Shown here piece by piece: positions 15,970-31,044 of a DNA stretch of 64,000 nt. Numbering within the stretch: the first letter of the stretch is position 1; each line of letters starts with the position of its first letter. Below the pieces are notes generated by a model. The model was given only the letters and a program-made list of their open reading frames with translations. It made no database searches and was not told the origin of the DNA. The stretch is from the NCBI GenBank assembly GCA_007694945.1, contig REER01000093.1:1-64000 (forward strand). Reading direction: 5' to 3'. Source of the stretch: Paracoccaceae bacterium (GTDB lineage Bacteria > Pseudomonadota > Alphaproteobacteria > Rhodobacterales > Rhodobacteraceae). The position numbers and the translations under genes are program-made.

Positions 15970-16179
15970 GCAACACCTGTCAGACGCACAACTCGGTTTA
16001 CGCGCGCTAACCATCTGTAAAGAATCCACTTTATGAAAGGCAGCCGCTATGTATCCTGTGCGGTAACAAGCTGAACGGCGCCTGTAGCGTACCCGGCTCC
16101 CGCAGAATGCGCAGTCATTGCGAGCAGGTCTTTTTTGACCCTTGCCCAGCCGCTGCAGCCTTTCTCTGGAGTTTTCGTT

Positions 16180-18735
16180 GTGACGAACCCGAACGATCCA
16201 CTTTTCGCGCAACAATGGCATTTTGGGCTGATCGGAGCCATCACCGCTGTCTGGGAAGACTATACAGGCAAGGGCGTCACAGTCGGGGTTTATGATGACG
16301 GCATCGCATATGACCATCCCGACATAGCCGCGAACTACCGCAGCGACCTGCATTTCACTTGGGGGGGTACCACCTACGACCCCTACCCACTTTCATCTCT
16401 CGACAGTCACGGGACAGCCGTTGCCGGGCTGATCGGCATGGTGGGCAGCAATGGTATAGGCGGCACAGGCGTTGCGCCGGAGGTAAGCCTGACCGGGGTG
16501 AATTTTCTGGAGGATATCCAGCATCGAGGGTTGTCCACGCTACTGGGATCTATCCAGCATGCGGGCAGCTTTGACATCAAGAACAATAGCTGGGGTGTGA
16601 GCCCAGAATATCAGATCTGGCAGTCCCCGGTCTCGCCTTTCAACAGTCAGTTCCTGATTGCTGAGCTCTTTGAAGAAATTTCGGGCAACGGGCGCGATGG
16701 GCTTGGTACGCTGATCGTTCAGGCCTCGGGAAATGATACGCTCAACGCGCAGGGCGATGCGCTCAACGTTGCGCGGCACACCATCTCGATTGCCGCCGCG
16801 GGACCGAGCGGCGCGCCGGCCTGGTACTCCAATTTTGGTTCGAACATCCTGATCACCGCGCCCGCAGGCAGTGTCACCACCATCCTGCCGGGCACGGGCA
16901 ATGGCTATACCAACAGCTTTGGCGGAACTTCGGCCGCGGCTCCCGTCACCTCCGGTGTCATCGCGCTGATTCTCGAGGCCAATCCTGATCTGGGCTGGCG
17001 CGATGTGCATCAGATCCTCGCGCTCTCGGCCAGTCACACGGGCTCTGACTTCGGCGCCGCGCCCGGTGCGCATGAGCAAGGGACGTGGATGCGCAACGGC
17101 GCCGAGAACTGGAACGGTGGTGGGCTCAGCTATCATCTTTCGCATGGCTTCGGCATGGTCGATGCTCATGCCAGTGTCCGCATGGCCGAAGCCTGGGCCG
17201 TGCTGATGCCGGAAACACAGACCAGCGACAATGAAACCAGCCTCTCGCTCGAGTATTCAGGACCAGCGCTTGCCATACCTGATGCGACCGTGACAGGTCC
17301 CATCGCGACCACCATTTCCTTCGAGGTCAGTGAAAGCTTGCGCCTCGACACGGTAGAGGTCGCGATCAGCCTCACCCATGCCCGCGCCGAGGATCTGAGT
17401 ATCCATATCGAAGACCCCCACGGCAACCGCTTCATGCTGATGTCCCGCGAAGGGGGCGGGACGCTGATGTCGAACGGGTTCGATTGGCTGTTCACAATTG
17501 TCGGCGTGAAGGGCACAAATGCCCAAGGGGTCTGGCAGCTTGTGATCGAGGACGAAACCCCCGGTGCCACAGGCAGCTTGACGGCGGCAGAACTGACCCT
17601 GCATGGCACGACAAATCCGGTCAATGTGCATCACATCACGGATGAGCTTACGCGGATAGTTTCCACATCCGGCACTGTCGCCGGGCTTGCCGCGCAGGCG
17701 CCCGGCGAATGGCTGAACCTTGCAGCGGTCACAGGCGATGTCGAGCTGAGTCTCGCGATCGGAGGCAGTTTTGAGATCGACGGGCTGCATCTGGCCGAGC
17801 TGCAAACCCCCTTCCACCGGCTCTATCTCGGTGACGGGAATAACATGGTCACAGGCACGGCCGGGCGTGACACGATCCATGGCGGGCGCGGCGACAACTA
17901 CATCGACGGCGGGGCCGGGAATGATCTTATCCATGGCGGGCCGGGCAATGACTCATTGCTGGGTGGACCGGGTCACGACACCATATTTGGTGGAGATGGT
18001 GATGACCTGATCTATGGCGGTCCCGGAAATGACCGGCTCTGGGGCGGCGAAGGCAATGACACGATTTACGGCGATATGGGTAATAACCGCATCGGCGGCG
18101 GGCCGGGTGATGATCTGCTGGTCGGCGGGCCGGGCCATGACACGATCTATGGTGGTCTGGGAGATGACACGATCCATGGGACAGCGGGCGACAATGCACT
18201 CTGGGGCATGGATGGGGACGACATCATCTATGGTGGCTCGGGCGATGACCGGATCGGCGGCGGACGCGGCAATGACACGATCTATGGCGGTGGCGGTAAT
18301 AACACCCTCTACGGCGGCATGGGCGAGGATGTGCTCTATGGCGGGCCGGGCGATGATGTGCTCTGGGGCATGGACGGGAATGACACGCTCTTCGGCGGTG
18401 CGGGGAATGATTACCTCCATGGCGGGCCGGGCGATGACGTGCTGCATGGTGGCCCCGGCGATGACACCATGTTCGGTGGGAGCGGCGCGGATATCTTCAT
18501 CTTCATGGCCGGAGACGAGACCGCACTGATCCTTGATTTCACTTTCAGCGACGATGACCGGCTGGAGCTTGATCAGGATCTCTGGGGCGGGGGCCTCACA
18601 GAGGCGGAGGTGCTTAACAGCTTTGCGAATATGCAGGGCGGACAGACCGTGATGAATTTCGGCGGCGGCGATGTGCTGACGCTGGCCGGGGTCACTGATC
18701 TGGCCACGCTTGGCAGCCATATCGACCTGATCTGA
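16180..18735 (+). CDS. Secreted subtilisin-like serine protease with P-domain and RTX repeats
   Basis: Multidomain exoprotease. The S8 domain carries all three catalytic motifs: Asp in [13 protein letters not shown] (~40), His in [10 protein letters not shown] (~88) and Ser in [12 protein letters not shown] (~250). A proprotein-convertase P-domain follows (~360-500, with IEDPHGNR). Then come ~24 glycine/aspartate nonapeptides of the GGxGxDxUx calcium-binding type (~560-775) and a C-terminal type-I-secretion-like region ([24 protein letters not shown]). There is no N-terminal signal peptide, consistent with ABC-type secretion; no secretion genes lie nearby. I chose GTG at 16180 because GGAG lies eight bases upstream and the protein then starts MTNPNDPLF; a TTG at 16135 is the alternative. 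Confidence 0.9.
17854..18507 (+). repeat. RTX calcium-binding nonapeptide repeat array within the protease gene
   Basis: About 24 consecutive 27-bp units encode GGxGxDxUx-type repeats. A 162-bp higher-order copy is visible: 18088-18249 and 18250-18411 each encode six nonapeptides in matching order, both running from RIGGG through a shared LWGMDG motif. This indicates internal tandem duplication of a six-repeat block. The family function (calcium-induced folding outside the cell) is established. Confidence 0.85.
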
Positions 18736-27367: not shown

Positions 27368-27904
27368 TCAGCCAGATTTCGGTCGAAACGCCACGCAGCG
27401 CGCGGAGTCCGTCTCGATCCGGCGAGCCCCGATCAGGTCGAGGCAATAGGGCACAGCAGCGAAGACCGCATTCAGGCAAGTCGCAATCGCGGCGGGCTTG
27501 CCGGGCAACGTGATGAACAGGGTCTCGCCCCGCACGCCCGCGCTCTGGCGTGACAGAATCGCTGTGGGCACCTCGGCCAGCGAGGCGCGGCGCATCGCCT
27601 CGCCGAAACCGGGCAAATCGAAATCGATGATATCGGCCAGCGCCTCGGGGGTGCGGTCGCGCGGAGCAGGGCCGGTACCGCCCGTGACCAGCACCAGATC
27701 GGCGCCACCATCGGCGAGCGCACGCATGGCCTCGGCCACAGGCTCGCGCCCGTCAGCGACAATCTGGCGGGTCACATCCAGCGGTGAGGTGATCGTCGCG
27801 CGCAGCCATTCTTCTGCCGCAGGGCCGCCGCGATCGGCATAGTCCCCACGCGCGGCCCGGTCCGAGACAATCAGAACCGCAATGCGCGCCACTTCAGGCG
27901 ACAT
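27368..27904 (-). CDS. mogA: Molybdopterin adenylyltransferase
   Basis: MogA activates molybdopterin by adenylation before molybdenum insertion. The MoCF-biosynthesis motif LVTGGTGPAPRDRTPEA (~77-93), DLPGFGEAMR (~105) and the C-terminal ASVPYC/AFRPKS-like signature (AAVPYCLDL, CVAFRPKS) closely follow E. coli MogA. Start MSPEVARIAV at 27904; 178 aa. It overlaps the end of the DUF2478 gene by 11 bases, so the two are co-transcribed from the promoter with the FNR-like box at 28468. Its retention fits continued need for Moco enzymes such as xanthine dehydrogenase. Confidence 0.9.
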   Translation of the reverse strand: MSPEVARIAVLIVSDRAARGDYADRGGPAAEEWLRATITSPLDVTRQIVADGREPVAEAMRALADGGADLVLVTGGTGPAPRDRTPEALADIIDFDLPGFGEAMRRASLAEVPTAILSRQSAGVRGETLFITLPGKPAAIATCLNAVFAAVPYCLDLIGARRIETDSARCVAFRPKSG

Positions 27905-28406
27905 GGCGCAGCCCTGCGCGCAGGCACCAATCGGTGACATGGGATACATCCGCGGGCAGAGCCTCGGCCAATCCGTCAGTGAAGGCCTCGAAAGCCGGCA
28001 GGTTCAGCGCATTGACGCCCACGAGCACCGGTACGTCCAAGCAGATGGCCTCACCGATGACAGGCGCAAAACCGCCACCCGCTTCGGCCTCGGTCTTGCC
28101 GAATTTGTTGACGATCAGCAGGTCCGCCCCGGGCAGTGCGGCCTCGGTCGCGACCACGGCCTGCGCCAGCACGCTGGTGTCGAGCGTGCAGCCGCGCGCG
28201 AGCGCACCGCGATCCTCACTTATGCGCAGCACTTCGCCCGTGGAGAGGAGCCGCAGATCCATGTCACATTTACGCCGGTCGGCGCGGGCAGTATTGGTCT
28301 GCACCGTGCCGCAGAGACGCAATCGGCCTGCCAGTCCGTCGACGACCTGCGCCAGAAACCGATCACTCGCGCCGCGTCCGGGCAGGCTGATATATCCCAA
28401 TTTCAT
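27894..28406 (-). CDS. DUF2478-family protein, molybdenum/nitrate-locus associated
   Basis: A 170-residue protein of the DUF2478 family, small predicted P-loop-like proteins usually met beside molybdenum-enzyme or nitrate respiration genes; biochemical function is not established. Visible features: KLGYISLPGRGASDRFLAQ at the start, CGTVQTN, CDMDLRLLSTG and LLIVNKFGKTEAEAGGG (~95-110), the last resembling a nucleotide-binding protein's NKxE-type strand. Start MKLGYISLPG has AAGGA eight bases upstream. It leads the two-gene unit with mogA and has a candidate anaerobic regulator box ~60 bp upstream. Confidence 0.75.
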   Translation of the reverse strand: MKLGYISLPGRGASDRFLAQVVDGLAGRLRLCGTVQTNTARADRRKCDMDLRLLSTGEVLRISEDRGALARGCTLDTSVLAQAVVATEAALPGADLLIVNKFGKTEAEAGGGFAPVIGEAICLDVPVLVGVNALNLPAFEAFTDGLAEALPADVSHVTDWCLRAGLRHVA

Positions 28407-28467
28407 CAGATGTATCCTTTTCAAAAACAGCGTTGCCCATGCTTACCGATGAAACCTCATACCGTCC

Positions 28468-28635: not shown

Positions 28636-29277
28636 TCATGTCTGCTCTCCAATCGCCGCATACTCAATCTTCGCCAAGGCACGCGCGCAGGCGCTGTCCA
28701 TCCGAGGCGATTGCTCTCGCCTTGCGCACATTTCGGCTAGAAGCGCGCGCTTGTCTTCTGGCGTCAGATGCATCCGCGCCAATGGCGGCAGGATGGCATT
28801 CTCGACAATCAGATGGCGACTCTCGGCGGCGGAGAGCCTCCACAGCGCATCGCGATCGTCCTGCATAGGCGGGGCACCATCGACCATGCATGCCAACGCC
28901 GGATTTAGAAGCGCAAAGGCGGATTTCGCGATCTCATGTTCGCGTTCCAACCTTGTGAGGATTTTCTCCAGCTCATCCTCGGGCAAAGCCCGCGCGCGCA
29001 GGGTGGGGAACAGAGCTTGTTCCTCATCCTCGAAATGTGCGGGCAGGTCGCGAGAGAGATTCACCAATATCCGCCGCGCCAGGTCCGGTCTGGGCTGGGC
29101 TGTTGCTGCCAGCGCATCCATGTCAGCGCAAAGCTCTCGCTGATTGAAATGCTTTTCATACATCCCCTCAATCGGGCACTCGGCCGCGCTGAGCTGCGGC
29201 AAGGTGGCGCGCGTACCCTGGATCATGCCGGTGTCGTGGTCAAGATGCCAGTCGGGATTGGTATTCGTGCCGGACAT
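28636..29277 (-). CDS. Hemerythrin HHE domain protein
   Basis: A 213-residue protein with the spaced histidines and carboxylates of a di-iron hemerythrin four-helix bundle: ECPIEGMYEKHFNQRELC (~34-51), LPAHFEDEEQALFP (~78-91), EREHEIAKSAF (~110) and ESRHLIVENAILPPL (~150-165). Such proteins bind O2 or NO, or help repair nitrosylated iron, and are common beside denitrification genes. The first ~15 residues and last 45 are outside the domain. It lies 18 bp downstream of the broken narK, in the same direction, and was probably part of the nitrate/NO locus; it may now lack its original promoter. Confidence 0.82.
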   Translation of the reverse strand: MSGTNTNPDWHLDHDTGMIQGTRATLPQLSAAECPIEGMYEKHFNQRELCADMDALAATAQPRPDLARRILVNLSRDLPAHFEDEEQALFPTLRARALPEDELEKILTRLEREHEIAKSAFALLNPALACMVDGAPPMQDDRDALWRLSAAESRHLIVENAILPPLARMHLTPEDKRALLAEMCARREQSPRMDSACARALAKIEYAAIGEQT

Positions 29278-29295: not shown

Positions 29296-30737
29296 TTACG
29301 CAGTCTGAAGCCGGACACCCTGCACCCAGGCCCGCGCGACAAGCTCTGAGGTAAATCTCGCCACCGCCTGTACCCAGGCCGCCTTGGCATATGCTTCGCG
29401 CAGGTGCGGCAGGACCGTCTCAAAGCGCAACACCTCGCCCTGCGCGCGGGCAACGAGCCGGATCAGATGCAGCCCGATCTGCCCTGTCACACGCCATTTG
29501 ATCGACGGGACAATCCCGAAAGCCGCGCCCTCTGCACCCTGCACGAAGAACGAGCAAATGATGGTGATCGCAATCGCGATGATCAGCGGCCAGTTGCTGT
29601 CCAACAGCCCCATCATCACGAAGCCGATGGCGATGCCAAGCATATAAGACATCATCACGAAACGGCGGTTGCCGAAACGGTCAGAGACCAACCCGCCAAT
29701 AGGCCGCGCGAACAGGTTGACGAAGGCAAAGCTTGCCGCGATTTGTCCGGCTGCCACTGCTGTGAGCCCCCAGGTTTCCTGGAAGAACATCGGCAGCATC
29801 GAGACCACAGCCAATTCCGCATCGAAATTGGCGCAGTAAGTCACATTCAGTGCAACGACCGACGAGAACGGATATTTGTCGTCTTCTGGCACGCCTTTTT
29901 TCAGGATCGGCAGATTGACGCAGACCGCCTGCCAGACCTGCCGGCCACGATGACGGCAAAGGCGAAGTAGCAAAAGGCCGCCGTGATGCCATCGATATAG
30001 CCCATCAATTGCACGCGATAGACCAGGATCGACAGGATACCGACCATGGGAACCGTTAAGATGCACAGCATCACCAGATCGCGCCAGCTCGACACTTCCA
30101 GCGCCGAGGCCTTGCGCGGCTTCTTGTGCGTGTCCCTGGTCGGGCCGTCGGTGATGGCAAACCAATAGAACAAACCATAAGCGGCAATTACCGCACCCGA
30201 CGTGGCCATGGCCCAGCGCCAGCCTTCTTCGCCGCCATACATGTGCAGCGCAATCGTGGGCAGGGTCATCGCTGCAGCGGCCGAGCCGAAATTGCCCCAG
30301 CCCGCGCCAAACCCTTCGGCAAAGCCGATCGAGCGCGCCGGGAACCAGAGTGCAATCATGTGGATGGTGACAACGAAGCTTGCACCGATGGACGAGAGCA
30401 CCAGGCGCGACATGAACAGCACTTCGCGCGAGTCGCCAAAGGCAAACACCCAGGTCGAATTTGCCATCAGCATCATCAGCACCGAGAACACCCGGCGCGG
30501 CCCGTAACGGTCCAGCGCCATGCCGACAATGATACGAGCCGGAATGGTCAGGGCGACATTGGCGATGGCAAAGAGGCGGATATCGTCACGGGTCAGCCAG
30601 TCCACCGAGGCGAGCATGGAAATCGCCAGCGGGGCCATGTTGAACCAGACATAGAAGCTCATGAAAGAGGCAATCCACGTGAGATGGAGCGCCTTGATTT
30701 CGGCATTCTTGAAGCGGAATAGATCGCTGACTTGCAT
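29296..30737 (-). pseudogene. narK: Nitrate/nitrite transporter NarK remnant, frameshifted and fused to a PpiC/NifM tail
   Basis: Major-facilitator nitrate/nitrite transporter in ruins. From 30737 the frame reads a NarK2-like N-terminal half (MQVSDLFRFKNAEIKALHLTW; membrane segments; GEDSR-free MFS motif ALDRYGPRR). Near 29940 the frame breaks: NarK sequence continues in another frame (VWQAVCVNLPILKKGVPEDDKYPF, shown in two pieces) to SIKWRVTGQI near 29480. There, instead of the last ~70 NarK residues, the frame enters GLHLIRLVARAQGEVL and ends EGVRL-like (VQGVRLQTA). That tail matches the C-terminus of the parvulin-type isomerase encoded at the end of narGHJI operons. So narGHJI and parts of both flanking genes seem deleted. 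Non-functional as a transporter. Confidence 0.8.
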
Positions 30738-31044
30738 GTCAGACCCTGAATATCAGGTGTGGGTCGCCTCCTACCTGCTGCGACAGTCTTTGCTGGCCAG
30801 TGGTGCGGCGTCCTATATCCTGCCTGTCGAGAAACGTTTGCTGGCATCCTATCTCGGGATGACCCCGCAAAACCTGTCACGCGCCTTGCGAACCTTTGAG
30901 AACTATGGCGTCAAGCTCGACCTGCCCCGCGTCATCATCATCAATCGCGAAAAACTCACTGCCCTCGCCCAGCCTGACCGCCTCATCGACGGACCAGATG
31001 ACATCGCAGATGCAAGCGGATCCGCACTGCCCAAGATATCCTAG
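30736..31044 (+). pseudogene. C-terminal fragment of a Crp/Fnr-family regulator (Dnr/NnrR-like)
   Basis: About 100 residues match only the dimerisation-helix end and winged-helix DNA-binding domain of a Crp/Fnr regulator: WVASYLLRQSL, then LPVEKRLLASYLGMTPQNLS with the recognition helix, and RALRTFENYGV. The ~140-residue sensor domain is missing. The fragment starts at the very base where narK starts on the other strand, leaving no intergenic promoter, so one deletion probably removed the regulator's 5' half, the divergent promoters and perhaps the narK 5' end. The family suggests a nitrate or NO regulator. Any product would lack a sensor. Confidence 0.75.

Follow-up and report, generated by a model that had tools for sequence, protein, structure and literature searches.

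A parvulin gene after narI is already known, judging from the part of the published account available to us, from Methylophaga nitratireducenticrescens JAM1, where a parvulin-like ppi gene follows nar2GHJI and narK1narK2 precede nar1GHJI (PMC4689864). The arrangement nar2GHJI-ppi-narK12f resembles the clusters of the genus treated here in having the isomerase gene directly 3' of narI, and narK1narK2-nar1GHJI resembles them in having a narK1-narK2 pair ahead of narGHJI; as far as the same part of the account goes, JAM1 differs in being intact and in carrying the two features in separate operons (PMC4689864). Denitrification genes that decay naturally within one genus, as at the present locus, are described in the available part of a paper on Thermus caliditerrae, in which nirS and norB are pseudogenes (PMC9270275). 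That case differs in affecting other genes, by C-terminal truncation, and no fused deletion scar appears in that part of the paper (PMC9270275).

The locus analysed here is very probably what is left of a cluster for respiratory nitrate reductase, a deletion scar made up of decaying pseudogenes. It lies in a window of 64,000 nucleotides (the whole stretch of DNA that was analysed) from a draft genome, G000, of 3,180,227 bases in 145 contigs, 95.4% complete with 2% contamination, whose host we take to be a soda-lake bacterium. Intact orthologues, joined ends, an inactivating lesion and relaxed constraint, which together define a deletion-scar pseudogene, were all found. Both joints and the frameshift are present in this assembly and the ancestral order is present in relatives; the scar itself is known from one genome. 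No paper describing this locus was found in the nar and genus literature, of which the titles and the beginnings of abstracts were covered.

The intact cluster in relatives

The records used for comparison include Natronohydrobacter thiooxidans AH01, Roseinatronobacter thiooxidans ALG1, Roseinatronobacter sp. HJB301, Rhabdonatronobacter sediminivivens IM2376 and soda-lake MAGs, and their source sites are presumably soda lakes. In G021 (locus L038) a divergent FtrB-like Crp/Fnr regulator gene is followed by usp, narK1, narK2, narG, narH, narJ, narI, ppiC, a hemerythrin gene and moeA, all co-directional, the last being what we take from its sequence to be moeA. The core order is the same in the other single-contig clusters, with the intact ppiC directly after narI, and the hemerythrin gene is present in some of them only. 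The narK1-narK2-narGHJI-ppiC clusters of Roseinatronobacter, Natronohydrobacter and Rhabdonatronobacter thus share order, orientation and flanking regulator with the window locus, which in contrast retains only the end of the regulator, 421 codons of narK1, 59 codons of ppiC and the hemerythrin gene. The earlier note had given narK-narGHJI-ppiC as the order in Pseudomonas-type loci, and an intact order of this kind does exist in relatives, except that two narK genes rather than one precede narG. The interval between narK1 and narG is a single open stretch of 474-567 codons in all eight clusters examined; that of G021, the only one scanned, is NarK-like with 281.9 bits, below the cut-off of 311.7. 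The deletion does not spare this second transporter, as it starts in narK1 and so narK2 was lost too.

Judged by its flanks the nearest relative is the MAG G004, with 93.9% identity along 8.8 kb of the right flank and, in a search of eight genomes, 92% along 8.3 kb of the left flank, whereas by the narK1 protein alone G023 is nearer than G004 (94% versus 91%). The narK1 gene of G004 is cut off at codon 443 by the start of one contig, a second contig carries narK1 from codon 482 together with narG, narH, narJ and part of narI, and a third contig has the left flank from its base 1 onward; the two flanks of the window therefore converge on the nar cluster there, and the ppiC and hemerythrin genes of G004 are hidden by the assembly gap. 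The nearest named isolate (L073), which was checked for the scar, is intact from narK1 to codon 189 of ppiC, where the stretch ends. The NarI proteins of L041 (11397-12155) and L042 (11490-12251) show only 51-56% identity to that of L038, and the NarH proteins of the same two clusters show 95-96%, which might reflect replacement or separate divergence of narI in these species.

Lesions in the window

The earlier note described an open frame of 289 amino acids, at 29296-30165 on the minus strand, as a chimera of narK and an isomerase gene, and the frame is indeed present. Residues 76-230, ending TGQI, are narK1, with 83-91% identity to 17 relatives in the genus. Residues 1-75 also come from narK1 DNA, to which relatives match only in a frame that is not that of narK1. 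The true start of narK1 is at 30737 (minus strand), placed as in relatives, and from there narK1 reads correctly for 265 codons and then runs out of frame to a stop at 29901. The frameshift that had been proposed near 29940 in the narK part is real: one base fewer is present after 29943 (at 29942-29943, minus strand) than in each of 13 aligned relatives. The remnant upstream of it, codons 1-265 by frame comparison with relatives, occupies 29943-30737, and that downstream, matching relatives as far as codon 421 of 548, occupies 29476-29942, both on the minus strand. Codons 1-266 show 84-94% amino-acid identity to narK1 in 17 genus genomes. The single uninterrupted frame of about 548 codons expected of NarK is therefore lacking, and in its place are two pieces in different frames that end at codon 421; among relatives, 16 of 19 narK1 frames reach a stop at 548-553 codons and the other three run off a contig. 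The TIGR00886 model gives 151.1 and 115.5 bits for the two pieces and 301.1 bits for the intact NarK1 of G021, all below its cut-off of 311.7, and since the intact protein falls below it too the cut-off was dropped as a sign of a broken narK1. At L047, in another MAG of the genus (G032:C14, 4681-4782 and from 4752 onward), narK1 also changes frame, near codon 23 and by one base fewer in the alignment, with unbroken narG and narH matches; either a sequencing error or another instance of early narK1 decay may explain this.

The last 59 residues of the chimeric frame had been assigned to a PpiC/NifM-type isomerase, and they match codons 201-259 of the PpiC encoded in relatives' nar clusters. The remnant of this parvulin-like gene, including its stop, lies at 29296-29475 (minus strand), and it is a homologous tail placed, as expected of a nar-cluster ppiC, before the hemerythrin gene. 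Identity is 61-76% in 12 close relatives (76% for G016, 73% for G006, 69% for G021), 45-46% in two further members of the genus (G029 and G060) and 39-63% in more distant bacteria. Searching this genome with the full PpiC of G006 found the tail (E = 3.1e-20, 69% identity) and, as the only other PpiC-like match, one distant parvulin on another contig at 30%. Scans with Pfam and NCBIfam gave no usable PPIase match in the tail, and the PF00639 rotamase domain that would mark a parvulin isomerase is absent from both the tail and the whole 289-aa frame. The PpiC of G021, which resembles NifM with a score under the cut-off of the NifM model, has this domain at 119-208 of 259 residues (E = 3.2e-22); generic models miss the tail because it lies mostly past the rotamase domain, and its identity was established by comparison with the clusters of relatives.

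Junction A, at 29475-29476, is the point where narK1 is joined to ppiC. The DNA of relatives matches continuously up to 29476 in narK1, the match picks up in ppiC at 29475, and narK2-narGHJI separate these two points in relatives, so that the end of narK1, narK2, narGHJI and most of ppiC have been removed. The missing length is 9140-9493 bases in ten distinct single-contig clusters (of 14 loci listed, three duplicate contigs already counted and one lacks a tail match). The suggestion that a single deletion from narK to ppiC removed the nitrate reductase is supported by the match of the tail, by the intact order in relatives and by the lack of any recognised narG or narH. That the join is in frame was a one-in-three chance, which by itself carries no weight. 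The joint bases TC are common to the narK1 side and the ppiC side in six of nine relatives' ppiC and absent in three, and one recombination step would use them. Two steps, namely recombination between GGGCAGATC in narK1 and its copy in ppiC followed by a trim of 24 bases, seem unlikely by comparison. It is true that narK1 ends at the joint with GGGCAGATC, that ppiC of L039 and L041 has the identical nine bases 24 upstream of the joint, that six more of the nine relatives' ppiC have it there with one mismatch, and that a match of this length occurs at no more than 0.3% of other narK1 positions. However, the exact match is only 6 bases long in six of the nine (fractions 0.04-0.05) and only 2 in L038, and one step is simpler than two.

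A second deletion, of about 1.2 kb and lying upstream, was missed by the earlier note. Its joint, junction B, falls within a 6-base identity (CGACCC, by comparison with G004) shared by the regulator side and the narK1 side at 30761-30766. Lost here are usp, the region upstream of usp and the 5' part, about 60%, of the regulator gene. As usp lies only 33 bases before narK1 on the same strand in G004, the promoter of the operon was presumably upstream of usp, and the deleted region presumably held it. What remains of the FtrB-like Crp/Fnr regulator, at 30767-31044 on the plus strand by model match and comparison with relatives, is the HTH end alone, which still scores as HTH_Crp_2; regulators of the FtrB type (PRK09392) combine this with a cNMP-binding sensor. 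The remnant has an open frame that starts with an ATG at 30739, within the leader of narK1, and 30739-31044 would encode a DNA-binding domain of 101 amino acids on its own. The remnant is altered in the stretch TPENLSRTL, common to the regulators of G004 and G021, which we take to be the recognition helix of this family. G004 (L075, 9948-9982) has two copies of the 15-base ATCCCGACCCACACC, one at the end of usp and the other immediately beyond it, and the pair adjoins the site corresponding to junction B in the window.

Decay of the remnants and loss of nitrate reductase

Of the 363 narK1 positions that do not vary among seven close relatives (our own choice from 13), the remnant departs at 17, where those relatives themselves depart at 0, 0, 1, 1, 1, 2 and 10; because L076 has the 10 unique departures, the excess is clear only against the other six. 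Against all 13 relatives the window departs at 13 of 318 positions and each relative at 0-6. In the ppiC tail 4 of 29 positions have changed, compared with 0-2 in 12 relatives. Compared with G004, the regulator remnant has 9 nonsynonymous and 6 synonymous differences, against 87 and 358 in seven neighbouring genes pooled (two of them in part), giving a one-sided Fisher p of 0.0009 for differences that are pairwise and carry no outgroup assignment to a lineage. Pairwise dN/dS of the narK1 remnant is 0.07-0.13, compared with 0.02-0.10 in 15 pairs of intact relatives, and the narK1 changes therefore mostly look older than the loss. We infer that nitrate reductase was lost fairly recently.

Neither another nitrate reductase (narG, narH or NapA) nor, as judged by narG and narH, an intact narGHJI locus elsewhere was recognised in this draft genome. 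Only weak matches to narG were found, the best with 19.9 bits against a cut-off of 1084, and none to narH at E <= 1e-20. The window locus has no match to narG, narH, narJ or narI, all of which a functional Nar locus would carry; the genome-wide search covered narG and narH. NapA was absent from all 37 genus genomes at E <= 1e-100 with a model that matched one control, E. coli. Three proteins with a Molybdopterin domain occur in this genome, with best scores to NuoG, formate dehydrogenase alpha and a PhsA-like enzyme. Since the genome is an incomplete draft in many contigs, failure to find narG and narH elsewhere does not prove that they are lacking, and G006, 99% complete, likewise shows no narG though narHJI is present. 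The cell probably cannot respire nitrate.

Rival readings and the state of the genus

The remnants are best accounted for as follows. An ancestor would have had an FtrB-like regulator gene facing away from usp-narK1-narK2-narGHJI-ppiC-hemerythrin. A deletion of about 9.2 kb would have joined codon 421 of narK1 to codon 201 of ppiC, and another of about 1.2 kb would have taken usp, the region upstream of it and the first part of the regulator gene. Both were probably made by illegitimate recombination at short identities. One base would also have been lost from narK1, and the remnants would since have begun drifting. The chain of events had been thought readable from this one locus, but the order of the lesions cannot be read there. 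The event is an ordinary kind of pathway loss in a clear form, and the locus is more damaged than previously reported.

It might be supposed that misassembly or a mixture of strains in the draft produced the joints and that the living cell has an intact cluster. This draft is in 145 contigs, and contigs of G004, G006, G016 and G023 break inside the nar cluster; because they do so in several relatives, the cluster appears hard to assemble. Yet all three lesions fall within 1.3 kb, and an assembler would not be expected to produce two clean deletions together with the loss of one base in a single locus; the stumps have extra amino-acid changes at conserved positions, which a mis-join does not cause, and no recognisable piece of narG or narH is present on another contig. 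An artefact is accordingly improbable. Still harder to credit is a new, functional fusion protein encoded by the narK1-ppiC frame, although this frame is open for 289 codons and continues across junction A. Such a fusion would begin with 75 residues read from narK1 DNA in the wrong frame, codons 1-265 of narK1 stand in another frame than the fusion, the isomerase domain is missing, and conserved residues are changing in the parts that were fused. The upstream region with the presumed promoter is deleted. With isomerase domain, upstream region and downstream genes gone and the start in the wrong frame, a functional fusion was rejected; on its sequence, the 289-aa frame arose by accident when the ends were joined and would give no working protein, and we take it as a by-product of junction A and not as a gene. 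The deletion scar preferred here is a sequence-level record of the loss of a respiratory module in an apparently free-living bacterium, with the deletion of the module, the truncation of a regulator and a frameshift within about 1.3 kb; a relative at about 93% flank DNA identity is available for comparison. If the 289-aa or 278-aa frame were labelled 'NarK' in an annotation, this would falsely imply nitrate transport.

A wider reading, that this soda-lake genus loses nitrate respiration repeatedly and usefully, and that one such loss is seen here at an early stage, with transporter, upstream region and adjoining regulator disabled together in one stretch and not the enzyme alone, seems doubtful. 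narG was found in 17 of 37 genus genomes at E <= 1e-20, 14 of them over the cut-off, two partial (G030 and G026) and the last G005, whose match of 111 bits suggests another enzyme; narH was found in 15 of 37. With G005 left out, at least 17 of 37 genomes have narG (whole or partial) or narH. This is a lower bound from draft genomes, as G001, G003 and G027 have narK1 and G016 has ppiC without narG or narH, the contig in each case ending close to the cluster or within it, and the reading of repeated loss is weakened by these four. G006 and G016, which have the hemerythrin gene without narG, were rejected as further nar losses: G006 has narHJI-ppiC on a contig starting in narH and G016 has ppiC at a contig end, and the missing genes therefore look like assembly gaps. 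No nirS (PF02239) was found in the 37 genomes, but the model matched no control genome and this absence means little. No nirK was found in any of the 37 at E <= 1e-20, with a model that matched 3 of 14 controls. nosZ was found in 5 of 37 genomes, this one not among them, with a model that matched none of the 14 controls but did match those five.

On the left the hemerythrin-domain gene (28636-29277, minus strand), which follows ppiC in some relatives, is still a whole open frame, and a mog-type molybdopterin adenylyltransferase gene and a DUF2478 gene are retained at 27368-28424 (minus strand), as they are near the hemerythrin gene in G016, G023, G024 and G033. Of 76 invariant positions in the hemerythrin gene, 8 have changed here, and 0-7 have changed in each of eight relatives (8 of the 11 matches outside this genome; G060, G029 and G017 were omitted as distant or broken). 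At L062 (G017:C217:3836-4003), on a contig that also has narH, a hemerythrin remnant carries an in-frame TAG, and the nar clusters L039 and L041 have no hemerythrin match; the gene thus seems easily lost. Elsewhere in the window, 16135-18735 encodes a large protein with subtilase, P-domain and RTX calcium-binding repeats.
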